This document shows positions 19,500-34,871 of a stretch of 43,324 nt of DNA, piece after piece. The stretch lies in the NCBI GenBank assembly GCA_021821045.1, contig JAKACW010000034.1:1-43324 (forward strand), given 5' to 3'. The notes under the pieces were generated by a model that worked only from the letters and a program-made list of their open reading frames with translations, had not been told where the DNA came from and did no database searches. The position numbers and the translations under genes are program-made. The stretch's first letter is position 1, and each line of letters opens with the position of its first letter. Source of the stretch: Pseudomonadota bacterium (GTDB lineage: Bacteria > Pseudomonadota > Gammaproteobacteria > JAADHS01).

Positions 19500-19523
19500 C
19501 CCGGCGATAGCGTTGTCGCCGGG
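19500..19523 (+). other. Hairpin in the nasT-like leader
   Basis: CCCGGCGA and TCGCCGGG form a perfect 8-bp stem with an 8-nt loop. There is no T-run, so it is not an intrinsic terminator. It lies in the predicted 5' leader, just downstream of the candidate sigma-54 promoter, and may influence stability or translation. Confidence 0.5.
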
Positions 19524-19558
19524 TGCGGGGTCAATGCGGCTGCGAGAAGGTGCTGGGT

Positions 19559-20170
19559 ATGACCGATACGGCTCTGGTGCTGAGTCACGTCGAAGACGAG
19601 TTGTTCTTATATAAACAGCAGCTTGCCGCGCTGGGTTTCGATGTGGCGTGGTGTCCGCTGGCCATCCCGACGCGGGATCTGGGCGGCGTCGTCGCGACCG
19701 CCGCGCCGCGGGTCATCGTCGTCATTTGTTCCAAGGTAACCGAGACGATTCTGGTGCGGCTGCGCCACATCATGGCGCATTGCTGCGCGCCTCTGCTGGT
19801 GTTTACCGCCGACGACGATTCGCGAATGATCGACGAGGCGCTTCGGGCCGGGGTGGCATCTTATGTGGTGGATCCGGACGGCGCGGCGGATCGTCTGCCG
19901 GCCATCATGCGGGTGGCCGATGCGCGCTGCCGTTTGGAGCAACAGCGCAAGTTTGATCTGCTCCAAGCGCGACAATCGCTGCAGGAGCGCAAGACCATCG
20001 ACCGCGCCAAAGGGATTCTCATGGACCGCAAGGGATTGTCCGAGTTCGACGCTTACCAGCTGCTGCGCAAATCGGCGATGAACAATAACGAGAAGATCAT
20101 CGATGTCGCGCGGCGGGTGCTGTCCGTCGCAAGCCTGAGCGCCGAACGCGGCGAATCTGCACGCTCCTAG
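19559..20170 (+). CDS. nasT: NasT-like ANTAR-domain antiterminator
   Basis: A 203-residue protein from ATG 19559, preceded by GAGAAGG at 19544-19550. An N-terminal pseudo-receiver (about 1-125; VIVVICSK, LLVFTADDD) is joined by a coiled coil to a C-terminal ANTAR domain (about 140-195: ERKTIDRAKGILMDRKGLSE, then DAYQLLRKSAM). NasT/AmiR proteins bind pairs of hexaloop RNA hairpins and prevent leader termination when nitrate or nitrite is present. The very next leader (20309-20433) has exactly such hairpins and a terminator. No NasS sensor lies beside it: the only NrtA-like protein in the window (25468) carries a signal peptide. Confidence 0.9.
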   Translation: MTDTALVLSHVEDELFLYKQQLAALGFDVAWCPLAIPTRDLGGVVATAAPRVIVVICSKVTETILVRLRHIMAHCCAPLLVFTADDDSRMIDEALRAGVASYVVDPDGAADRLPAIMRVADARCRLEQQRKFDLLQARQSLQERKTIDRAKGILMDRKGLSEFDAYQLLRKSAMNNNEKIIDVARRVLSVASLSAERGESARS

Positions 20171-20189: not shown

Positions 20190-20297
20190 TGCACCATATT
20201 GCGGCTTGCTGGCGCGGTCTGCCCGTGATTCACTCCGCGAAAAATTCGAACGCACAGTGACTTAAGAATTTTCGAACCTCTTGGCACAACCTCTGCA
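20190..20297 (+). promoter_or_regulatory. Candidate sigma-54 promoter and upstream region of the reductase operon
   Basis: TGGCACAACCTCTGCA at 20282-20297 has GG (20283-20284) and GC (20295-20296) separated by 10 bp. The predicted start is near 20308, one base before the ANTAR hairpins. Upstream, TGCACC at 20190-20195 with a poor partner at 20201-20206 is a possible NtrC half-site, about 115 bp before the start. TTCGAA occurs at 20245-20250 and again at 20271-20276. RpoN/NtrC control is inferred from these elements and from the gene content. Confidence 0.65.
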
Positions 20298-20308
20298 AAG
20301 CTTACTGC

Positions 20309-20361
20309 GCAACCCAATGATGGGCTGTTAACCAACGCATAGGCGGTCATGGCCGACCGCC
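20309..20361 (+). ncRNA. ANTAR-target leader RNA (P1 and P2 hexaloop hairpins)
   Basis: P1 (20309-20328) pairs GCAACCC with GGGCTGT (one mismatch, one G-U) around the six-base loop AATGAT. P2 (20342-20361) is a perfect 7-bp stem, GGCGGTC with GACCGCC, around the six-base loop ATGGCC. Both loops have A at position 1 and G at position 4, the bases conserved in RNA targets of ANTAR proteins. The hairpins are directly followed by an intrinsic terminator and the reductase gene, and nasT lies immediately upstream, so the assignment as a NasT-controlled attenuator is strong. Confidence 0.85.
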
Positions 20362-20369
20362 ACTGGACA

Positions 20370-20433
20370 ACGGCGTCCACGCTTCGCTTCCAACCCTCCC
20401 GGATTCGGCGAAGCAGTGGACGCCGTTTTTTTT
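20370..20433 (+). terminator. Intrinsic attenuator terminator before the reductase gene
   Basis: ACGGCGTCCAC (20370-20380) pairs perfectly with GTGGACGCCGT (20416-20426), and GCTTCGC (20381-20387) pairs with GCGAAGC (20408-20414) across a single bulged base. Eight T residues (20426-20433) follow. The reductase start codon is only 10 bp beyond, so this is a leader attenuator rather than the end of a gene. NasT binding to the two upstream hairpins would be expected to allow read-through. Confidence 0.92.
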
Positions 20434-20442
20434 GGGGTACGC

Positions 20443-22497
20443 ATGCTGAGTTTGACCAAGCAGGTTGTCGAGCGATCGCTGTCGGCGAATGTGGCGCGGC
20501 GAAGTCCGTCGCCACCGGCGCAGAATCCGGCGGCGTCTCAGGACAGGCCATCGCAAACCCATCCTGTCGTCATCGTGGGCGCCGGGCCGGTGGGCATGCG
20601 GGCCGCGCAGGAACTGCTCAAGCGCGACCAACGCACACCTTTGGTTCTGTTCGGCGACGAGCCCTGGCAGCCGTACAACCGGGTGCGCCTATCCTCATTG
20701 CTGTCGGGGGAGTTGAGTTGGGCGGCGACGTTCGAGGGGCTGACCTTGGCGGCGGATGCGCGCGTTACCCAGCACTTTCACTGTCCGATTGTCGCCATCG
20801 ATCGCGACAACCGCAGCGTAACGGATGCCAAGGGAACGACCTATTCCTACTCCTACCTGATTCTGGCCACGGGGTCGCGGGCTCACATGCCCAGCATTCC
20901 GGGCATCGCGCTTACGGGCGTTTACAAGTTTCGTGATTTGAACGATGCGCAACATTTGTTGGCTCGCCGCGTGCGTACCCGAAAGACGGTAGTGATCGGC
21001 GGCGGTTTGTTGGGGTTGGAAGCCGCGCGGGCCATGCAGCGTTTCAATACCGAAGTGACCGTGATCGAGCACGCGACCCGTTTGATGAATCGTCAGCTCG
21101 ATGACGGCGCCGCCGAGCGCTTGCGCGAGCATTTGATGTCGATGGGTATGCGCATCGTTTTGCACGACTCGGTGCGGCAGGTCGTCGGTGATCAGCGCGT
21201 GCAGGGCGTCGCGTTGCTGAGCGGGCGGACGATCGAGTGCGACACCGTGGTGGTGGCCACCGGCATTGTGCCCAATGTGGAACTGGCGCTGCAGGCGCAA
21301 CTTAGCGTCGGCCGCGGCATTCGCGTCAATGACAACATGCAAACCAGCGATGAGCGGATCTTCGCCGTGGGCGAATGCGCCGAGCATCGCGGCGTGGTCT
21401 ACGGTTTAGTTGGACCGGGGTTCGAGCAAGCAGCGGTCGCCGCCCACCGCATCGCGGTTGGCCGGGCGCGTTATCAGGGCTCCATCGTCGCCGCGCGGTT
21501 GAAGGTTGTGGGCCAGCCAGTGTTTAGCATGGGGGCGGTCACCGAGGAGGCCGTTCCGCCCGAAGCGACGGCGCTCGTATTTGAGCGCACCAATGCCCAT
21601 CTCTATCGCAAATTGATTATTCGGCGCGGGCGTCTCGCCGGCGCCGTGGCACTGGGCGAGTGGGAACAGTTGGGCCGCTTGCAGGAAGCGATTACTCGTC
21701 GCCGAATCGTGTGGCCGTGGCAGCGCCGTCGTTTTCGCCGCGAGGGCGACCTGTGGCCGGCGGCTCAGCGCGACGCCATCGCCCATTGGCCCGCGGGGAC
21801 GGTGATCTGCAATTGCACCGGCGTGACGCGCGGTGCGATTTCACGGGCCATCGATGGCGGCTGCACCAGCGTGTCCGCCGTTGCGCAGTGCACTGGCGCA
21901 TCCAGTGTGTGCGGTTCGTGCCGGCCGCTGGTGGTCGAACTGCTCGGCGACAGCACCCTGTGCGAAGCGACCCGCGAGCAGAAAGCGATTTATGGGGTTT
22001 CGCTGCTGGCGTTGGCACTTGCCATGCTGACCTGCATCGTGCCCGCGATCGGCTCCCTTGACAGCGTCCAAGCGCCGATTCGCTGGGATCTGTTGTGGAC
22101 CGACGGATTGATTAAGCAGATCACCGGCTACAGTCTGCTCGGCCTGTCTGTCGTGGGCTTGGCGTTGTCGTTACGCAAGCGCATCAAACGCTTTACCTGG
22201 GGCGACGTCGCTAATTGGCAGGTGATTCACGTCGTTCTGGGCGCCGCCATCGTCGCTGCCTTTTTCGCTCATACCGGCTTCGGCCTTGGCGAGAACCTCA
22301 ATCGGGCGTTGGCGGTGGACTTCCTTGTGCTGTTGCTGGTGGGCGCACTGGGCGGAGTGCTCATTGGGTTGCAGTCGCGATTGCGCGCGGCGGTTGCCAA
22401 ACAGTGGCGCGACGGTCTGCTGTGGGCCCACATTCTGGCGTTCTGGCCGTTGCCCGTTCTGCTCGCCTTTCATATCACCGGCGTCTACTACTTTTAG
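20443..22497 (+). CDS. NirB-like flavoprotein fused to a di-haem b membrane domain
   Basis: A 684-residue protein. The N-terminal half matches the electron-input part of NirB: FAD-binding VVIVGAGPVG (42-51), NAD(P)-binding VVIGGGLLGLEAA (about 180-195) and VGECAEHRG closing the FAD site. A BFD-like [2Fe-2S] domain follows with C456, C458, C490 and C493. In NirB a sirohaem/[4Fe-4S] nitrite reductase domain comes next; here it is absent and replaced by about five membrane helices (530-684). Helices 3 and 5 each carry His pairs 14 residues apart (H596/H610 and H663/H677), the HX13H pattern of transmembrane b-haem pairs. It probably passes electrons from NAD(P)H to the periplasmic multihaem cytochrome of the next gene. 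ATG 20443 has GGGG just upstream; a GTG at 20416 lies inside the terminator and is rejected. Confidence 0.85.
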   Translation: MLSLTKQVVERSLSANVARRSPSPPAQNPAASQDRPSQTHPVVIVGAGPVGMRAAQELLKRDQRTPLVLFGDEPWQPYNRVRLSSLLSGELSWAATFEGLTLAADARVTQHFHCPIVAIDRDNRSVTDAKGTTYSYSYLILATGSRAHMPSIPGIALTGVYKFRDLNDAQHLLARRVRTRKTVVIGGGLLGLEAARAMQRFNTEVTVIEHATRLMNRQLDDGAAERLREHLMSMGMRIVLHDSVRQVVGDQRVQGVALLSGRTIECDTVVVATGIVPNVELALQAQLSVGRGIRVNDNMQTSDERIFAVGECAEHRGVVYGLVGPGFEQAAVAAHRIAVGRARYQGSIVAARLKVVGQPVFSMGAVTEEAVPPEATALVFERTNAHLYRKLIIRRGRLAGAVALGEWEQLGRLQEAITRRRIVWPWQRRRFRREGDLWPAAQRDAIAHWPAGTVICNCTGVTRGAISRAIDGGCTSVSAVAQCTGASSVCGSCRPLVVELLGDSTLCEATREQKAIYGVSLLALALAMLTCIVPAIGSLDSVQAPIRWDLLWTDGLIKQITGYSLLGLSVVGLALSLRKRIKRFTWGDVANWQVIHVVLGAAIVAAFFAHTGFGLGENLNRALAVDFLVLLLVGALGGVLIGLQSRLRAAVAKQWRDGLLWAHILAFWPLPVLLAFHITGVYYF

Positions 22498-22510
22498 GCT
22501 TGTTTGGACC

Positions 22511-23869
22511 ATGGCATCGAGCAAAGCAAAAGTGTGGGCGATGTGGATCGCGATGACGATCTTTGCCGCGACCTATCTTGGCTACGCCATGGCGGGCAAG
22601 CATCAGGCGCTCTATCTACCAGGTGCGACAACGGATGGCCATTACCAAATCGAGTTGAAATGCGAGCAATGCCATGGCGGCGGTTTCGAGGGCGGCGCGG
22701 CTTTGCAGAAAGCCTGCGTTCGATGTCACGGCGACGAACTCGCGGCGGTGGAGGACTCCCACCCGCGCAAGAAGTTCACCGACCCGCGCAATGCTGAACG
22801 GGTGTCCAAACTCGACGCGACCCTCTGCGTGACGTGCCACAGCGAACACCGGCCCCGCCACACCCGCGCCATGGGCGTGACGCTGGCCGACGACTTCTGC
22901 GTGTTCTGTCATGCCGACATCGAAGAGGACAGAAAGAGCCACAAGGACTTTGGGTTTGAAGGCTGTGCGGCGGCGGGGTGCCACAACTTTCATGACAACG
23001 AAGCGCTGTACGAAGACTTTCTGGTCAAGCACGGCGGAGACCCTGACTTGTTGGAGTCGCCGCGTGTGCCTGCGAGAGACTTTGGGGAATTCAATAGACG
23101 CGTCCATCCCGATCAAGCGATCCCGCTGTTAGCCGCGGCCAGCGACGCGCCGAGTTCGGCGGCGGAGCGGAAGATTGTGGATGACTGGGCGAAGTCGGCC
23201 CATGCCGACGGCGGGATCAACTGCAGCGGTTGTCATTCGAAAACCGAGACGGATCGAACATGGGTGGGCAAGCCGGGGCTGGATGTCTGCGCGCGCTGCC
23301 ACGAAGCGGAACAAACCGGCTTTCGCGCCGGCAAGCACGGCATGCGCCTGGCCGCCGAACTCGAACCCATGTCGCCGGTGCTTGCCCGCCTGCCCATGAA
23401 AGCGGATGTGAAAGACCAGCCCATGGGTTGCGAGACTTGTCATGGCGGTCATCGCTATGACACGGCGCGCGCAGCCGTGGATGCCTGCCTGGGTTGCCAC
23501 GACGATGACCACTCGCGGGAATACAAGAAGTCACCTCACTTCGAGTTGCCCGCGGAGGCGGCGGTCACGTGCGCAACCTGCCACTTGCCGCGCTTGGCCC
23601 ACAAGCAAGACGGCGAGCGGCGCGTGCTCGTCCAACACAATCAAAATTTCAATCTGCGGCCCAACGAAAAAATGATTCGCACCGTCTGCATGAACTGTCA
23701 TGGCCTGCGCTTTGCCATCGACGCGCTGGCCGATCCGGCGCTGATCGCCAACAACTTTCGCGGTAAGCCCAGCAAACATGTCGGGAGCATCGACATGGCG
23801 ATCGCGCGGGAGTTGAGTGGCGAAAAGGACAAGGATAGGAAAGAGCGCAGGAATGAAGAAGGCTCATGA
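22511..23869 (+). CDS. Membrane-anchored undecahaem cytochrome c
   Basis: A 452-residue protein from ATG 22511. One N-terminal hydrophobic helix (about 8-28) acts as signal or anchor; the rest is periplasmic. Eleven haem-binding motifs are seen: CXXCH at residues 51, 69, 106, 130, 238, 260, 307, 326, 354 and 393, and one CX4CH (CAAAGCH) at 152. None is CXXCK, the catalytic motif of NrfA and octahaem nitrite reductases. The chain ends in a highly charged tail. The gene follows the reductase by 13 bp. It may be an electron conduit or a new type of terminal reductase; the sequence does not decide. The haems fall in two groups (1-5 and 6-11) separated by about 80 residues. Confidence 0.85.
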   Translation: MASSKAKVWAMWIAMTIFAATYLGYAMAGKHQALYLPGATTDGHYQIELKCEQCHGGGFEGGAALQKACVRCHGDELAAVEDSHPRKKFTDPRNAERVSKLDATLCVTCHSEHRPRHTRAMGVTLADDFCVFCHADIEEDRKSHKDFGFEGCAAAGCHNFHDNEALYEDFLVKHGGDPDLLESPRVPARDFGEFNRRVHPDQAIPLLAAASDAPSSAAERKIVDDWAKSAHADGGINCSGCHSKTETDRTWVGKPGLDVCARCHEAEQTGFRAGKHGMRLAAELEPMSPVLARLPMKADVKDQPMGCETCHGGHRYDTARAAVDACLGCHDDDHSREYKKSPHFELPAEAAVTCATCHLPRLAHKQDGERRVLVQHNQNFNLRPNEKMIRTVCMNCHGLRFAIDALADPALIANNFRGKPSKHVGSIDMAIARELSGEKDKDRKERRNEEGS

Positions 23870-23883
23870 GCAAAAAAGAAGTT

Positions 23884-23944
23884 GTGGGAGCGGATCATTC
23901 CGCGATCGAGTCGGGCGAAGAATCGCGGAATGATCCGCTCCCAC
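23884..23944. repeat. REP-like inverted pair (BIME)
   Basis: Two oppositely oriented copies (GTGGGAGCGG... and ...CCGCTCCCAC) flank a 14-bp centre and can form a long hairpin. The pair lies between the multihaem cytochrome and the haem lipoprotein genes inside the putative operon, where it could set 3' ends and relative mRNA levels. Confidence 0.88.
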
Positions 23945-23988
23945 AGTGCATGCGATCAATATTTTCTAACAGAAGAGGAGTAGCAACG

Positions 23989-24573
23989 ATGAAAAACAAA
24001 GCAGTGCTAATGGGCGCAGTTCTCAGCGTCGGATCGGTCGGCGCGATCCTTGGCGGATGCTCCGAGACCACGGCCAAGAGCGGCGGCTTGAATCCGCAGA
24101 GTGTGGCCGATTCGATTCATGCCGTTCTGGAGTCGGATCGAACTGTCTACACCAAGTTCGTGGTCAATCGCCTGGTCAAGGAGGAGAAGGTCATCAAAGC
24201 CAGCGAACATTGGAAAGACGACAAAGCCCTGCCGCTGCCGGCGCAGATGTTCCGCATGGGGGCGGAGGCCGTGGCCGAGAAGAACGCAGGGTTCAGCTAC
24301 TCGCTGTTGTCGCTGTGGCCCATCAACAAACAGAACGAGCCGAAAACCGAAGCGGAAAAGAGCGGTTTGAAGTTCATCGCCGAAAACCCCGGCCAGAACT
24401 TCTACACCGAGGAAGAACTGGGCGGCAAGAAATACTACACCGCGGTCTACCCCGATATGGCTATCGCCCCGGCCTGCGTCGAGTGCCACAACGACCACAA
24501 AGACACGCCCAAGAGCGATTTCAAAATCGGGGACGTCATGGGCGGCGTGGTGATTCGATTGCCGATGAGTTAA
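23989..24573 (+). CDS. Haem lipoprotein with Tll0287-like (DUF3365) domain
   Basis: A 194-residue protein from ATG 23989, with a strong AGAAGAGGAG ribosome site at 23971-23980. An open frame from 23866 includes the REP pair and is not coding. The lipobox LGGC places the lipidated Cys at about residue 24. A single CXXCH (CVECH, followed by NDHK) lies near the end. The body (LLSLWPINKQN, FTYTEEEL-like region, GGVVIRLPMS) matches the DUF3365/Tll0287-like haem domain, which has been linked to redox or signalling roles. Being in the nitrogen-oxide cluster, it may carry electrons to or from the 11-haem protein, or sense redox or NO; the function is unproven. Confidence 0.82.
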   Translation: MKNKAVLMGAVLSVGSVGAILGGCSETTAKSGGLNPQSVADSIHAVLESDRTVYTKFVVNRLVKEEKVIKASEHWKDDKALPLPAQMFRMGAEAVAEKNAGFSYSLLSLWPINKQNEPKTEAEKSGLKFIAENPGQNFYTEEELGGKKYYTAVYPDMAIAPACVECHNDHKDTPKSDFKIGDVMGGVVIRLPMS

Positions 24574-24606: not shown

Positions 24607-24685
24607 GTGGGAGCGGTTTCCTACCGCGATTCTTGGCCGGACGTGCAGAGTGGCCCGGTCACATCGCGGAATGATCCGCTCCCAC
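24607..24685. repeat. REP-like inverted pair (mixed types)
   Basis: A TTTCCTA-type copy at 24607-24631 faces an ATCATT-type copy ending at 24685, with about 29 bp between. It lies between the haem lipoprotein and globin genes. Confidence 0.87.
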
Positions 24686-24712
24686 AATTTTCAATCAAAC
24701 GGAGAGAAAACA

Positions 24713-25132
24713 ATGACACCTGAACAAGTAGCACTGATCAAATCAAGTTTCGCCAAGGTCGAACCCATCGCCGACACCGCCGCCGCGATATTCTATGGCC
24801 GCCTGTTCGCGCTGGATCCGGAACTCAAACCGCTGTTCAAGGGCGACATGGTCGAGCAAGGCCGCAAGCTGATGCGCATGATTGGCACCGCCGTGCGCGG
24901 GCTCGACGACTTGCCGGCCATCGTGCCCGCGGTGCAGGATCTGGGCCGGCGGCACGTTCGCTATGGTGTGAAGGACGAGCACTACGACACGGTCGGGGCG
25001 GCGTTGATCTGGACACTGGAACAAGGCTTGGGCGAGGACTTCACGCCGGCGACCAAGACAGCGTGGGTCGACGTGTATACCGTTTTGGCGACGACCATGA
25101 AGGACGCCGCGGCCAAGCAGCAAGCGGCTTAA
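24713..25132 (+). CDS. Single-domain globin
   Basis: A 139-residue protein from ATG 24713, with GGAGAG upstream at 24701-24706. It has the globin fold pattern of bacterial single-domain haemoglobins: MTPEQVALIKSSFAKV at the A helix, IFYGRLFALDPELKPLFKGD in the B-C region, LGRRHVRYGVKDEHYDTVG with the proximal His of the F helix, and LIWTLEQGLGEDFTP in the G helix. There is no reductase domain, so it is not a flavohaemoglobin. In a nitrate/nitrite cluster the likely role is binding or oxidising NO leaked during nitrite reduction, or oxygen handling. Confidence 0.9.
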   Translation: MTPEQVALIKSSFAKVEPIADTAAAIFYGRLFALDPELKPLFKGDMVEQGRKLMRMIGTAVRGLDDLPAIVPAVQDLGRRHVRYGVKDEHYDTVGAALIWTLEQGLGEDFTPATKTAWVDVYTVLATTMKDAAAKQQAA

Positions 25133-25354: not shown

Positions 25355-25467
25355 ACTTATGAATTGAGACGAAGCTTTCGTGCCTGCCGAGAACCCAAAG
25401 CGGTTCGAATAAGGTGCGCGGCGGATTCACTTTGAACGAGAAAACGACACAACAGGCGGAGTTACTT

Positions 25468-26844
25468 ATGCAGAATCTTTTGGTATCGATGTCATTGCGG
25501 GCAAAGGTTGGCTTGGCAGCGGCGTTAGTACTGGCATCCACGAGCGCGCTCGCTGAGATCGGCCCCCCCGAGAAGGAAGATCTCAAATTCGGCTTCATCA
25601 AACTTACCGACATGGCGCCCTTGGCGATTGCCTACGAGAAAGGCTACTTCGAAGACGAAGGTCTGTTTGTCAGCCTCGAAGCGCAGGCGAATTGGAAAGT
25701 GCTGCTCGATCGCGTTATAGACGGCGAACTGGACGGCGCCCACATGTTGGCGGGGCAGCCTTTGGGCGCGACCATCGGCTTCGGCACCCAGGCCCACGTC
25801 GTTACCGCTTTCAGCATGGATCTCAACGGCAACGGCATCACCGTCGCCAAGAGCGTGTGGGATGAAATGAAAAAGCACGTCCCCATGGAAAACGGCAAGC
25901 CGGTGCATCCGGTAAAAGCCGATGCGCTCAAGCCGGTGGTGGAAAAATATCGCAAAGAAGGCAAAGCGTTCAACATGGGCATGGTGTTCCCCGTGTCGAC
26001 TCACAATTATGAGCTGCGCTACTGGCTGGCCGCGGGCGGCATCAACCCGGGATTTTACGCTCCGGCCAAGGGCGACATCACCGGACAGCTCAAAGCCGAT
26101 GTATTGCTCAGCGTAACGCCGCCGCCCCAAATGCCCTCCACCTTGGAAGCCGGAACCATTCTTGGTTACTGCGTTGGAGAGCCGTGGAATCAGCAGGCGG
26201 TATTTAAAGGGATCGGCGTGCCCGTCATCACCGACTACGAGATCTGGAAGAACAACCCGGAGAAAGTATTCGGTGTCAGCAGCGACTGGGCGAAGAAATA
26301 TCCCAACACCCACATTCGCGTCGTCAAGGCGCTGATTCGCGCCGCTTACTGGTTGGACGAGAACAGCAACAAGAATCGCCCGGAGGCGGTGAAGATTCTC
26401 GCCAAGAGCCAGTACGTGGGCGCCGACTACGACGTCATCGCCAACAGCATGACCGGAACCTTCGAGTACGAGAAGGGCGACAAGCGGGAGGTGCCGGATT
26501 TCAACGTGTTCTTCCGCTACAACGCGACCTATCCCTACTACAGCGATGCGATTTGGTATCTGACGCAGATGCGCCGCTGGGGTCAGATCGCCGAACAGAA
26601 GCCGGACGACTGGTACAAGGAAACGGCGAAGAAAGTCTACCGGCCGGACATTTACGCCGCCGCCGCGAAGGAGTTGATCGCAGAAGGTAAATTCAAAGCA
26701 AGCGACTTCCCCGACTTCGCCACCGAGACCGGCTATCGAGCTCCCCAGTCCGAGTTCATCGATGGCGTGACCTACGACGGAACAAAACCCAATGAGTATC
26801 TGGAGAAGTTCTCCATTGGGTTGAAAGGTAAGGAAACGATTTAA
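25468..26844 (+). CDS. nrtA: Nitrate ABC transporter substrate-binding protein (NrtA-type)
   Basis: A 458-residue protein from ATG 25468, with GGAG 6 bp upstream. The signal peptide (about 1-29, ending ASTSALA-E) shows it is periplasmic. The fold resembles NrtA/CmpA/SsuA proteins: [22 protein letters not shown], the ligand-pocket region [20 protein letters not shown], and [12 protein letters not shown], typical of nitrate or bicarbonate binders. The downstream permease and ATPase genes, and the nasT control of the neighbouring operon, favour nitrate/nitrite over bicarbonate, taurine or cyanate. It is not NasS, which has no signal peptide. Confidence 0.88.
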
Positions 26845-26861
26845 TTGGAATCGCAAATGTT

Positions 26862-26922
26862 GTGGGAGCGGATTATTCCGCGATTGGGCTGGCGAAGAAT
26901 CGCGGTAGGAAACCGCTCCCAC
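26862..26922. repeat. REP-like inverted pair between nrtA and nrtB
   Basis: An ATTATT-type copy faces a TTTCCTA-type copy. The element separates the binding-protein gene from the permease gene and ends 18 bp before the nrtB start. Such hairpins can protect the upstream mRNA, which fits a need for excess binding protein. Confidence 0.87.
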
Positions 26923-26939
26923 AAAGAAAGGTGAAGTTT

Positions 26940-27959
26940 ATGAATTCTCAAACAGCAACCATACCGAAAGCCGGCGATCTGGCGCGCAACTGGATCTCCA
27001 AGTGGTTAGCCGACAGCAACCCCGTCGCAACGCTAAAAGATATGAGCTTCAATCTCGGCGTTCCCTTGCTCGCCCTGGTGGCCTTCTGTCTGTTGTGGGC
27101 GGGCGTGGCCTCGAAGGTCCAAACGTCGCTCGGACAATTGCCCGGCCCCACCATGGTATGGGGTCAGGCGATGACGCTGTATCAGGAACACAAAGCGGAG
27201 CGCGAGAAGGAAGCGGCTTTCTATGAGCGCCAAGAGCAGCGCAATGCGGAAAAGCTCGCCGCCGATCCCAACGCCGACGTGAAGATCCGACCCTACACCG
27301 GCAAGCCGACCTTTATCGATCAAATCAAGACCAGCTTGTTTACGGTCGCGACGGGCTTTCTGCTGGCGGCGTTGATCGCCATTCCGGTCGGCATCGTGTG
27401 CGGGCTCAACAGCGGACTGTATCGGGCTTTCAACCCGCTGATTCAGATCTTCAAGCCGGTTTCGCCGCTGGCCTGGCTGCCCATTGTCACCATGGTGGTC
27501 AGCGCGCTGTATGTGTCGGACGATCCGATGTTTTCCAAGTCGTACCTCAACTCCGCCATCACCGTGATGCTGTGCTGCGTGTGGCCGACCATCATCAACA
27601 CCACGGTGGGCGTGGCGTCGGTGGACAAAGATCTGCTGAACGTCAGTCGCGTGCTGCGTTTGAGCTGGTTCACCAATGTCATCAAGATCGTCATTCCGTC
27701 GGCGATTCCCATGATATTCACCGGGCTGCGGGTGTCGCTCGGCATCGGCTGGATGGTGCTCATCGCGGCGGAAATGCTGGCCCAGAACCCCGGCCTCGGC
27801 AAGTTCGTGTGGGATGAGTTTCAGAACGGCAGCTCCGATTCGTTGGCCCGCATCATGGCGGCGGTGTTCACCATCGGCATCATCGGTTTCTTACTCGACC
27901 GCATCATGCTCGGCATTCAACGCTGGGTAAGTTGGGATAAAGCGGCGAACTTGCGTTAG
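26940..27959 (+). CDS. nrtB: Nitrate ABC transporter permease (NrtB-type)
   Basis: A 339-residue inner-membrane protein from ATG 26940; the frame is open upstream only through the REP pair. After one N-terminal helix (about 37-57) there is a charged, coiled periplasmic segment (EHKAEREKEAAFYERQEQRN), then a BPD-type permease domain with about five helices. The EAA-type loop is VDKDLLNVSRVLRLSWFTNVIK followed by IPSAIPMIFTGLRVSLG. The family is that of NrtB/CmpB/SsuC. It forms the channel with the ATPase encoded downstream. Confidence 0.9.
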   Translation: MNSQTATIPKAGDLARNWISKWLADSNPVATLKDMSFNLGVPLLALVAFCLLWAGVASKVQTSLGQLPGPTMVWGQAMTLYQEHKAEREKEAAFYERQEQRNAEKLAADPNADVKIRPYTGKPTFIDQIKTSLFTVATGFLLAALIAIPVGIVCGLNSGLYRAFNPLIQIFKPVSPLAWLPIVTMVVSALYVSDDPMFSKSYLNSAITVMLCCVWPTIINTTVGVASVDKDLLNVSRVLRLSWFTNVIKIVIPSAIPMIFTGLRVSLGIGWMVLIAAEMLAQNPGLGKFVWDEFQNGSSDSLARIMAAVFTIGIIGFLLDRIMLGIQRWVSWDKAANLR

Positions 27960-27990
27960 ACGTGGACAAGGGTAAACAACTGTGACAACG

Positions 27991-28014
27991 AATCGCGGAA
28001 TAATCCGCTCCCAC
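27991..28014. repeat. REP-like palindrome (single) between nrtB and nrtD
   Basis: A single copy (AATCGCGG...CCGCTCCCAC) lies in the 86-bp gap between permease and ATPase genes. It is the fourth REP-type element within the nitrogen-oxide island. Confidence 0.85.
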
Positions 28015-28045
28015 AATGGATCGCGATTCTTTCTGAGGACTTAGC

Positions 28046-28933
28046 ATGACAACCGACAACTATCTCGAACTCAGCCAAGTTGCCATTACCTTCCCCACGC
28101 CGAAGGGGCCGTTTCTCGCCTTGCAGGACGTGAATCTCAAAATCGCCAAGGGCGAGTTTATTTCCGTCATCGGCCATTCCGGTTGCGGCAAATCGACTGT
28201 TCTGAATATTGTGGCGGGCTTGCACCAAGCGACCACGGGCGGCGTGATTCTCGAAGGCAAGGAAGTCACCGAGCCCGGCCCCGACCGAGCGGTGGTGTTT
28301 CAAAATCACTCGCTGCTGCCGTGGCTGACCGCTTATGAAAACGTCGAACTGGCAGTTAAGCGCGTCTTCGGCAAGAAGAAATCCAAGCAGGAAATCGCCC
28401 AGTGGGTCGAACACAATCTTGGTTTGGTGCACATGGAACACGCCATGCACAAACGGCCCCACGAGATTTCAGGCGGGATGAAGCAGCGCGTCGGCATTGC
28501 GCGGGCGCTGGCCATGGAGCCCAAGGTGCTGCTGATGGACGAGCCTTTTGGCGCATTGGATGCCCTGACCCGGGCCCACATGCAGGACTCGCTGATGGAA
28601 ATCCAGAATCGCCTGAACAACACGGTGATCATGGTGACCCACGACGTCGACGAGGCGGTGTTGCTCTCCGATCGCATTGTCATGATGAACCAAGGTCCGG
28701 GCGCCACCATCGGCGAGATTCTCAAAATCGATCTGCCGCGACCGCGGGATCGGGTCACTCTGGCCGAGACGCCGGAATACAACCACTACCGCGCGGCGGT
28801 GCTGCAGTTTCTGTATGCGAAAAAGCACGCGTCCGCCAAGCCAGCGGTCAAGAGCGAAGCGGTTGAGGAAACGGCCGAGCCGGAGCCGGGGTTGGTGTCG
28901 TTGGAGGAGCACAAGAAGAAGAAATTCGGCTGA
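28046..28933 (+). CDS. nrtD: Nitrate ABC transporter ATP-binding protein (NrtD-type)
   Basis: A 295-residue ABC ATPase. Walker A GHSGCGKST (43-51), Q-loop VFQNHSLLPW, signature ISGGMKQR, Walker B VLLMDEPFGALD and H-loop VTHDVDEA are all intact. The last 45 residues (KKHASAKPAVKSEAVEETAEPE and beyond) are a charged tail not needed for the ATPase fold. It is of the NrtD/SsuB/TauB family and energises uptake with the preceding permease. GAGGAC before ATG 28046 can serve as ribosome site. Confidence 0.92.
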   Translation: MTTDNYLELSQVAITFPTPKGPFLALQDVNLKIAKGEFISVIGHSGCGKSTVLNIVAGLHQATTGGVILEGKEVTEPGPDRAVVFQNHSLLPWLTAYENVELAVKRVFGKKKSKQEIAQWVEHNLGLVHMEHAMHKRPHEISGGMKQRVGIARALAMEPKVLLMDEPFGALDALTRAHMQDSLMEIQNRLNNTVIMVTHDVDEAVLLSDRIVMMNQGPGATIGEILKIDLPRPRDRVTLAETPEYNHYRAAVLQFLYAKKHASAKPAVKSEAVEETAEPEPGLVSLEEHKKKKFG

Positions 28934-32573: not shown

Positions 32574-33647
32574 ATGTCCTTTCGAGTATTGAATATGAGA
32601 AGTTGGTTCATCGTGACTTGCATGTTCGCGACCGCGCCTTCGGCATGGACTGCGGACGTTCCCGACATCGGCCCGTTGCCGCCCGTTACGGCCAATCCGG
32701 ACAATCAACCCACACCCGAACGCATGGCGCTGGGTCAGGCATTGTTTTTTGATAATCGCATCTCGGGCAGCGGCAACATGAACTGTTCGAGCTGCCATTT
32801 GCCCAATGTCGGCTGGACGTTGCCGTCCGCGTTTTCCCTCGCCAACGAAGGCTTCGTCGAGCGGCGCAGTGCGCCGACGCTCATCAACGTCGGCTACAAC
32901 AAAGCGCTGATCTGGGACGGGCGCGCGCCGAACTTGGAAAAGCAGGCCATCGGTTCCACGACCAACCCCGTCCACAAGGGGCAGAACATGGACACGTTGA
33001 TGAAGATCCTCAACGACGATCCTAAAGTGGTCGCGATGTTTAAGGCCGCCTACAACAGCAAACCCAATCCCGATGACTACGGTCGCGCCATGGCGGTGTG
33101 GCAACGGCATTTTCTGGTGACGGGCGACAGCGCCTTCGACAAATACATGAAAGGCGACAAATCTGCGCTGAGCGAGTCGGCTGTGCGCGGTATGGCGATC
33201 TTCAAGGGCAAGGGTGGCTGTATCGCCTGCCACAACGGTTCTAACTTTACTGATTCCGATTTTCACAATACGGGGCTGAAACGCAATCCCGAGTTCGATA
33301 AGCCCGAGTTTCGTAAGATCTTGGCGTTCGACGCCAAGCGCATGAAACTCGACGATCCGGATAACGTCACCGATGATCCGGGCCGGTACCTGGTCACCAA
33401 GAACAAGGCCGATTGGAAGAAATTCAAAACGCCGACCCTGCGCAACATCACCGACACGGCGCCTTATATGCATGACGGTCGGTATCAAACGCTAGATGTG
33501 GTCATCGATCACTACAACCGCGGCGGCGATGGGGTGGAAAACCAGGATCCGCGCATCAAGCCGCTGGGGCTTACCGCGACGGAGAAGGCGGATCTCAAGG
33601 CTTTTCTTGAGTCGCTATGGGGGCCGTTGCCCAGCTTGGCGATGTAA
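32574..33647 (+). CDS. Di-haem cytochrome c peroxidase/MauG-family protein
   Basis: A 357-residue periplasmic protein. The signal peptide ends near SAWTA-D (about 27). Two haem motifs are present, CSSCH (71-75) and CIACH (216-220), with the family features FFDNRISGSGNMNCSSCH, LIWDGRAPNLEKQA, FKTPTLRNI and APYMHDGRYQTL. AGGAGAG precedes ATG 32574. The family contains hydrogen-peroxide-reducing CcpA enzymes and MauG-like enzymes that oxidise protein side chains. Its neighbours (small periplasmic and membrane proteins) could be a substrate and an electron partner, which would favour the MauG side. No decisive residue was identified. Confidence 0.88.
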   Translation: MSFRVLNMRSWFIVTCMFATAPSAWTADVPDIGPLPPVTANPDNQPTPERMALGQALFFDNRISGSGNMNCSSCHLPNVGWTLPSAFSLANEGFVERRSAPTLINVGYNKALIWDGRAPNLEKQAIGSTTNPVHKGQNMDTLMKILNDDPKVVAMFKAAYNSKPNPDDYGRAMAVWQRHFLVTGDSAFDKYMKGDKSALSESAVRGMAIFKGKGGCIACHNGSNFTDSDFHNTGLKRNPEFDKPEFRKILAFDAKRMKLDDPDNVTDDPGRYLVTKNKADWKKFKTPTLRNITDTAPYMHDGRYQTLDVVIDHYNRGGDGVENQDPRIKPLGLTATEKADLKAFLESLWGPLPSLAM

Positions 33648-33683
33648 GACTTACACAATTTAAAACTGATTTGGAGGTAAAGA

Positions 33684-34871
33684 ATGAAAACGCGAGATCG
33701 CTTGCTGAGAAAGGTTCCATTCGGATTTGCTGTGTTGGTACTTATCGCTGTGAATCTCATTGGCTGCGGTTCGGACAACGATAGCGACCCAGTGCCATTG
33801 GTGCCCGATATTCCGTCATCGGACCAAATCACCAAAGCGGCAATTTTAACCGGCGCTCAAGAAACGCCGTCGGTGACTACGAGCGCGACGGGTTTCGGTT
33901 CGGTAGTCGTGAATTCGACGACGCGCGCGATCTCGGGCGAGTTCAACTTCACTGGCGTCACCGCGACGGCGGCGCACATCCATACGGGCGCTGCGGGTGT
34001 GGCGGGCGCGCCGGCGATCACGTTGACCGTTGACAATGCCAACTTCAGCGCCACCGTTCCTGCCGGAACGGTGTTGAACCAAACCCAGTACGACGATCTG
34101 ATGGCCGGCAACCTGTACGTCAACGTTCACAGCGCAACCAATCCCGGCGGTGAGATTCGCGGGCAGCTCGGTCGAATCGTGATGACGGCAACGCTGAACG
34201 GCGGGCAAGAAACGCCGGCAGTGGTCACCGCGGCGAACGGCACGGGTAGGGTTGTGGTGGATCCCGAATCCCGCGCGATGACCGGCGGCGTAGAATTCAG
34301 CGGCGTCGTCGCTACCGCGGCGCACATTCACACCGCGGCCGCGGGCATCGCTGGACCCGTTGCGATCACGTTAACGCTCGGCGTGGAAAGCGCCACCGTG
34401 CCGGCCGGCACGGTACTGACCCAACAACAGTACGACGATCTCTTGGCCGGAAAGCTCTATTTCAACGTGCATAGCATTTCCAACCCGGGCGGCGAGATTC
34501 GCGGTCAGATCGGGCCTGTCGCCATGGTGGCGGTGCTCGATGGCGCGCAGGAAGTCCCGGCCGTGATAACCGCGGCGACGGGCCAAGGGGTGATGGTCGT
34601 CGATCCGGTGACGCGCGCCATGTCCGGCGGCGTCGTTTTCAGCGGCGTCGTCCCGACCGCCTCCCATATTCACACCGGCGCGCCCGGCGTCAGCGGCGGC
34701 ATCGCCGTTCCTTTAACGCTCGGGGCAGGGGGCATCAGCGCGGTGGTCCCGCCTGGCACGCTGCTGACCCAACAGCAGTATGACGACCTCGTGGCCGGCA
34801 ATCTGTATGTCAACGTCCACAGCGCGGCCAATCCCGGCGGTGAAATTCGCGGTCAATTGGAGACGCCGTAA
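33684..34871 (+). CDS. Lipoprotein with three CHRD domains
   Basis: A 395-residue protein. The lipobox NLIGC puts the lipidated Cys at 28. Three CHRD domains follow (about 53-160, 162-275 and 277-395), each with the repeated elements G(A/G)QE(T/V)P, AHIH(T)GA or SHIHTGA, and VHS-NPGGEIRGQ. CHRD domains are named from chordin; their bacterial role is not established, though the His pairs suggest metal binding. GGAGG stands before ATG 33684. It lies 36 bp after the di-haem gene on the same strand and may be co-transcribed. Confidence 0.9.
   Translation: MKTRDRLLRKVPFGFAVLVLIAVNLIGCGSDNDSDPVPLVPDIPSSDQITKAAILTGAQETPSVTTSATGFGSVVVNSTTRAISGEFNFTGVTATAAHIHTGAAGVAGAPAITLTVDNANFSATVPAGTVLNQTQYDDLMAGNLYVNVHSATNPGGEIRGQLGRIVMTATLNGGQETPAVVTAANGTGRVVVDPESRAMTGGVEFSGVVATAAHIHTAAAGIAGPVAITLTLGVESATVPAGTVLTQQQYDDLLAGKLYFNVHSISNPGGEIRGQIGPVAMVAVLDGAQEVPAVITAATGQGVMVVDPVTRAMSGGVVFSGVVPTASHIHTGAPGVSGGIAVPLTLGAGGISAVVPPGTLLTQQQYDDLVAGNLYVNVHSAANPGGEIRGQLETP

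Follow-up and report, generated by a model that had tools for sequence, protein, structure and literature searches.

A NirB-type head on a membrane tail, constantly paired with an 11-haem cytochrome: a candidate nitrate-linked electron conduit in beta- and gammaproteobacteria

The window analysed here, that is, the whole 43,324-nucleotide stretch of contig JAKACW010000034.1 (assembly GCA_021821045.1, Gammaproteobacteria), carries a module of co-directional genes whose first protein, NirBTM, joins the input half of the nitrite reductase NirB to a five-helix membrane tail, and whose second is an anchored 11-haem c-type cytochrome (Table 1). Based on sequence comparisons and structure models, we propose that this module is a NasT-controlled, nitrate-induced conduit that takes electrons from NAD(P)H, delivers them to the periplasm and serves nitric oxide (NO) handling during nitrate use. 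We consider the conduit itself likely; its assignment to NO is evenly poised, and the same holds for the proposal as a whole. New here are the observations that the module travels with gas-binding or NO-consuming proteins, and that the axial cysteine found in the redox-type subgroup of Tll0287 proteins is missing from its own Tll0287-like protein.

Anatomy and distribution of the module

The N-terminal head of NirBTM corresponds to the FAD/NAD(P)H and BFD [2Fe-2S] input half of NirB, with Pfam matches to Pyr_redox_2 (residues 41-333), Rubredoxin_C (351-420) and Fer2_BFD (454-501) and with the four BFD cysteines invariant across 14 aligned sequences; taken by itself, it amounts to an entire ferredoxin-reductase-type NAD(P)H oxidoreductase. 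On the 794-position NirB model TIGR02374, the protein covers positions 1-480 only and scores 396 bits against a cut-off of 578, and no match to the NIR_SIR sirohaem/4Fe-4S domain was obtained in the protein or at its site in the genome scan. The helices that follow residue 510 make five membrane passes in the AlphaFold2 model (residues 513-532, 556-580, 589-611, 619-642 and 649-683; mean predicted local distance difference test score, pLDDT, 77). Two HX13H pairs, His 596/610 and 663/677, are placed in helices 3 and 5, as expected by sequence for a di-haem b domain, and all four histidines are invariant in the 14 aligned homologues and in 35/35 members of a larger set. Given the five passes and an invariant Arg-Lys-Arg (RKR) loop after helix 2, the positive-inside rule predicts a cytoplasmic head and a periplasmic C terminus. 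These results bear out an earlier note on this DNA, which had described the FAD/NAD and [2Fe-2S] parts of NirB without its sirohaem half, followed by helices with two HX13H pairs. Searched alone, the tail matched no Pfam family above cut-off and showed weak similarity to DUF4405; among 15 tails searched against Pfam, this weak similarity recurred in seven and PF01794 (Ferric_reduct) was absent from the matches. Fold searches with NirBTM likewise returned flavin-head relatives only, with no matches contributed by the tail.

The 11-haem protein, confirmed as the anchored cytochrome the earlier note had described, carries ten CXXCH motifs and one CX4CH motif, and 11 motifs were found again in nearly all of its homologues. 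Across 36 long sequences, 11 further histidines, conserved at a level of at least 97%, equal the 11 motif histidines in number, the shortfall matching one sequence with masked letters (L005). CXXCK, the catalytic-haem motif of NrfA and octahaem nitrite reductases, occurs in none of 38 sequences, and PDB matches to these enzymes are limited to short stretches around haem motifs. Because distal histidines equal haems in number and CXXCK is absent, all haems are probably bis-His ligated, and the protein suits the role of an electron wire better than that of a nitrite reductase, contrary to the earlier suggestion that it might be the reductase itself.

A scan of public genomes provided 15 relatives. 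In a search of 369 genomes from the same class with a profile of the membrane tail, strong matches (E below 1e-35) numbered 25, and 23 of these lie within open frames that are 653-732 residues long. With one overlap (G199/L006) counted once, about 39 beta- and gammaproteobacterial genomes carry NirBTM; most are draft assemblies, many derived from metagenomes, and the neighbour counts below take related genomes as independent. The 11-haem gene lies immediately downstream of NirBTM in 38/38 carriers with a visible next gene, such that the profile search and pairing test proposed in the earlier note returned a constant association, and a Tll0287 gene comes next in 37 carriers. In one carrier (G300; L122, 9833-10279), the 11-haem gene ends after its first four haem motifs, through assembly error or decay. 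Apparent NirBTM/11-haem fusions in L005, L009, L012 and L014 were rejected as out-of-frame open frames in GC-rich DNA, and no plasmid record carries the 11-haem gene at E 1e-20.

Two further arrangements were noticed. An 863-residue protein in another genome (G299; L120, 7833-10421) combines two cyclic nucleotide (cNMP)-binding domains, a BFD domain and an FNR-type FAD/NAD reductase with a similar membrane tail, and has no 11-haem neighbour. The genome of the window itself also encodes a split cousin (contig C126; L116, 1145-9894, minus strand) composed of a 4Fe-4S plus FAD/NAD oxidoreductase, a 309-residue cytochrome b that contains two HX13H pairs, and a multihaem cytochrome of 21 motifs, with cytochromes of 24 and 34 haem-like motifs downstream.

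Table 1. Features of the module and its surroundings in the window
Feature	Position	Strand	Basis
NasT-type regulator with ANTAR RNA-binding domain	19523..20170 (start perhaps 19553)	+	PF03861, E 5e-20
ANTAR-type antitermination leader	20305..20437	+	A1/G4 hexaloops and intrinsic terminator
NirBTM (P0001), 684 residues	20443..22497	+	NirB-type FAD/NAD(P)H and [2Fe-2S] head, five-helix tail, two HX13H pairs
Anchored 11-haem c-type cytochrome (P0003)	22511..23869	+	Haem motifs and one N-terminal membrane helix
Tll0287-like (DUF3365, sCache_heme) protein, one c haem, probable lipobox	23989..24573 (open frame from 23866)	+	PF11845, E 1e-20
Single-domain globin	24713..25132 (open frame from 24605)	+	PF00042; PDB matches; start codon with ribosome site
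NrtABC nitrate ABC transporter (binding protein, permease, ATPase)	25414..28933	+	Profile matches

Nitrate-type control and gas-binding partners

NasT-like ANTAR genes are found in many of the related loci, and the space between the NasT-type gene and NirBTM in the window holds a putative antitermination leader. Known ANTAR targets comprise two hexaloop hairpins with A and G at loop positions 1 and 4, located upstream of and overlapping a terminator (PMC3369931). Three hexaloops of this form are present (AATGAT, 20316-20321; ATGGCC, 20349-20354; AACGGC, 20369-20374), the last two and the terminator reproducing this layout at 20342-20433. The AACGGC hairpin overlaps the 5' arm of the intrinsic terminator, whose T run lies at 20426-20433, and as it shares its loop and 3' arm with this terminator arm the two structures would be mutually exclusive. 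The leader fold has a z of -4.4, and the Rfam P11 model matches over its full length at 35.4 bits, below its own threshold of 70. A strict form of the leader precedes 11/34 modules as opposed to 4/1652 control windows and 3/3400 shuffles (Fisher p 5e-17), and a looser form, the P2-terminator part, 20/34 modules as opposed to 39/1652 controls (2.4%; Fisher p 2e-22), in tests that again count related genomes as independent. Control of the module by a NasT-type regulator, as the earlier note had it, is thereby supported at the sequence level. A scan of the NasA-NirB locus of the same genome gave no convincing copy of this leader. The co-location with nitrate uptake noted earlier also extends beyond the window, an NrtABC-type transporter adjoining the module in about 12 loci. 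REP-like palindromic repeats (GTGGGAGCGGAT...ATCCGCTCCCAC) separate genes of the operon at 23881-23951, 24661-24692, 26859-26884 and 27990-28021, and further along (32574-34868) the window encodes a di-haem protein of the cytochrome c peroxidase/MauG type and, after it, a CHRD-repeat protein.

The span first assigned to the module, 20282-23869, had a sound start, because it takes in the leader, and too short an end, because the co-directional Tll0287-like and globin genes belong to the module. The Tll0287-like protein combines a PF11845 match with CXXCH, as in sCache_heme proteins, and across the modules these proteins stand alone and have no conserved cysteine beyond CXXCH, hence no axial one. 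A stand-alone sCache_heme protein tested previously has an axial cysteine and behaves in a redox-type manner, while one from a signalling architecture lacks this cysteine and retains NO (PMC12889525). The module proteins share the domain with its single covalent c haem, yet differ from the characterised stand-alone protein in lacking that cysteine.

A gas-binding or NO-consuming neighbour was found in 30/38 modules. Most often (23 modules) it is a single-domain globin, which is divergent in two cases; three modules have a truncated haemoglobin instead, two a hemerythrin, and a further two a CuA plus COX1-like pair. The nearest solved relatives of the window globin are bacterial globins of the Hell's Gate type. 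The CuA plus COX1-like pair (PF00116 and PF00115), confined to L004 and L005, has the composition of sNOR; in the L004 protein, the sequence GHVFIN places Asn at the position taken by Tyr in oxygen reductases, a residue tabulated as typical of sNOR (PMC8756737), and the L005 copy is 88% identical. This suggests that interchangeable gas-binding or NO-consuming partners travel with the module, although the roles of the hemerythrins and globins in these loci are predicted from their families. Among further neighbours, a ferredoxin-NAD reductase-type gene comes after the truncated haemoglobin of L135, and the two hemerythrin carriers each have a gene of the zinc alcohol dehydrogenase type next to the module (L124, 13120-14118; L125, 7575-8573, minus strand). 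In three carriers without a globin neighbour, a gene for an alginate-export-type outer membrane porin directly follows the Tll0287 gene (L150, 4977-6134; L151, 2278-3516, minus strand; L152, 10546-11751, minus strand).

Proposed mechanism and alternatives

In the mechanism we propose, the cytoplasmic head, whose domain families are observed, would oxidise NAD(P)H at FAD and pass the electrons to its [2Fe-2S] cluster. The four invariant histidines of helices 3 and 5 would hold two stacked b haems, one per membrane face, carrying electrons outward, and the anchored 11-haem protein, invariably encoded next door, may gather them in the periplasm. From there the electrons would pass to the Tll0287 haem protein, and also to a small cytochrome c in modules that encode one, and would serve to reduce or remove NO or related nitrogen oxides. 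The candidate NO-consuming partner is whichever of globin, truncated globin, hemerythrin or sNOR-like enzyme is encoded alongside. The module would work alongside NasA and NirB, which make or use nitrite and can leak NO.

The link to NO derives mainly from a slot that is repeatedly swapped among unrelated O2/NO-binding or NO-reducing proteins, and several observations count against it or against the conduit. No gas-binding or NO-consuming neighbour was found in 8/38 modules, some of which lie near contig ends, and globins and hemerythrins may bind O2 instead. Carriers show no excess of NirS-type denitrification (4/25 vs 69/344, p 0.80), which removes one simple source of NO and leaves leakage from nitrate assimilation. 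Finally, the AlphaFold2 model of the 11-haem protein (pLDDT 44) was unusable and was not taken into a fold search, so haem ligation in this protein rests on histidine counting.

The earlier note had read the module as an alternative assimilatory route, in which periplasmic nitrite or another nitrogen oxide would be reduced to ammonium by the 11-haem protein or another partner. The NirB-type head, the NasT-type leader and the NrtABC neighbours would all fit such a route, which we nonetheless regard as very unlikely given the distribution of complete NirB. In the genome of the window, a full NirB (844 residues, 963 bits) adjoins NasA on another contig (C136); in the 369-genome sample, full NirB is enriched among carriers (20/25, vs 146/344 non-carriers, p 0.0003); and it lies within the module cluster itself in L004, L005, L010 and L123. 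Such co-occurrence is the observation that the earlier note had named in advance as contradicting its reading. Gene orders include NasA, CobA, NasB-like, NirB, NirD, NasT, module in L004 and NasT, globin, module, NrtABC, NirB, NasA in G325. The five sampled carriers without full NirB could be taken in favour of the route, but in one of them (G067) NasA has a two-domain protein of NirA size as its neighbour, and two near-complete genomes (G025 and G195) have neither NirB nor a NasA match at E 1e-80, which suggests that the role of the module is not strictly nitrate assimilation; the looser leader form precedes the G025 module as well. The absence of CXXCK and the 11 distal histidines for 11 haems argue in the same direction. 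By gene content, the module is an accompaniment to the normal nitrite-assimilating NirB and no substitute for it. Of the earlier reading, the NirB-type input, the di-haem-type helices leading to an 11-haem protein, the constant pairing, the NasT-type control and the nitrate-uptake neighbours stand, whereas the assimilatory route and a reductase role for the 11-haem protein are not supported.

Electrons might also flow inward, from periplasmic donors through the 11-haem protein and the head to NasA or NAD+, which would save NAD(P)H in chemolithotrophs such as sulfur oxidisers. NirB-type heads do serve as electron donors to assimilatory nitrate reductases in Nas systems. Flp of Bradyrhizobium is a proposed donor of this kind (PMC4724949), and the carriers include several members of Thiobacillus, Hydrogenophilales and Thiotrichaceae. 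We consider this direction quite unlikely: the head has all the parts of an NAD(P)H oxidoreductase, the module occurs in G025 and G195 even though neither has a NasA match, and the gas-binding slot would be left unexplained. Another reading is a general redox outlet, through which surplus electrons from NAD(P)H would drain to cytochrome c and oxidases in the periplasm, with the globin supplying or sensing O2. In its favour, many modules include a gene for a monohaem cytochrome c, redox-like behaviour is known for the best characterised of the stand-alone Tll0287-type proteins, and the split cousin in the same genome comes with very large multihaem cytochromes. The outlet seems rather unlikely to us, as it would leave the NasT-type leader, the nitrate-transport context and the sNOR-like replacement unexplained. 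It is also unlikely, in our judgment, that the module is itself an NAD(P)H-driven periplasmic reductase of nitric oxide (or nitrite), with catalysis at an open c haem on the Tll0287 protein that the NirB-type head, the di-haem tail and the 11-haem wire would feed.

Significance and relation to known systems

If the proposed conduit is correct, a membrane tail on the input half of NirB has built a widespread NAD(P)H-to-periplasm electron path. The literature searched contained no description of the cluster, which is weak evidence of novelty, with subscription journals mostly outside the search. In the many uncultured beta- and gammaproteobacteria where it is subject to nitrate-type control, such a module would link nitrate uptake to NO control, and a NirB-like annotation could hide an electron exporter instead of a nitrite reductase.

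NirBTM shares its FAD/NAD(P)H, Rubredoxin_C and BFD [2Fe-2S] head with NirB, the large subunit of the NADH-dependent sirohaem nitrite reductase, but has a membrane tail in place of the sirohaem/4Fe-4S half and coexists with full NirB. NOX, ferric reductase, MsrQ and STEAP proteins use reduced nucleotide or flavin inside the cell, one or more b haems across the membrane and an acceptor outside. The same inside-to-outside layout is predicted for NirBTM, except that its head is N-terminal and NirB-type with a [2Fe-2S] cluster, and that its putative output is an 11-haem c protein. The latter has a weak DmsE match and may, like the MtrA/DmsE decahaem conduits, ligate all haems by bis-His; unlike these, it has 11 haems and a membrane anchor, and no MtrB-type porin was seen among its constant neighbours. 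The leader shares A1/G4 hexaloops upstream of and overlapping a terminator with NasR/NasT ANTAR leaders (PMC3369931) and Rfam P11, but precedes a proposed electron-export module. Closest in apparent purpose is narK-bjgb-flp-nasC of Bradyrhizobium. These nitrate genes are under NasT control and include a single-domain globin (Bjgb) together with a flavoprotein that uses NAD(P)H (Flp); the pair detoxifies NO from nitrate assimilation, and NO protection has been demonstrated (PMC4724949). There, Flp is the proposed donor to NasC and Bjgb, and the accessible part of that report mentions no NirB-head fusion, 11-haem protein or Tll0287 protein; as far as it goes, the two systems appear comparable in purpose and different in machinery.

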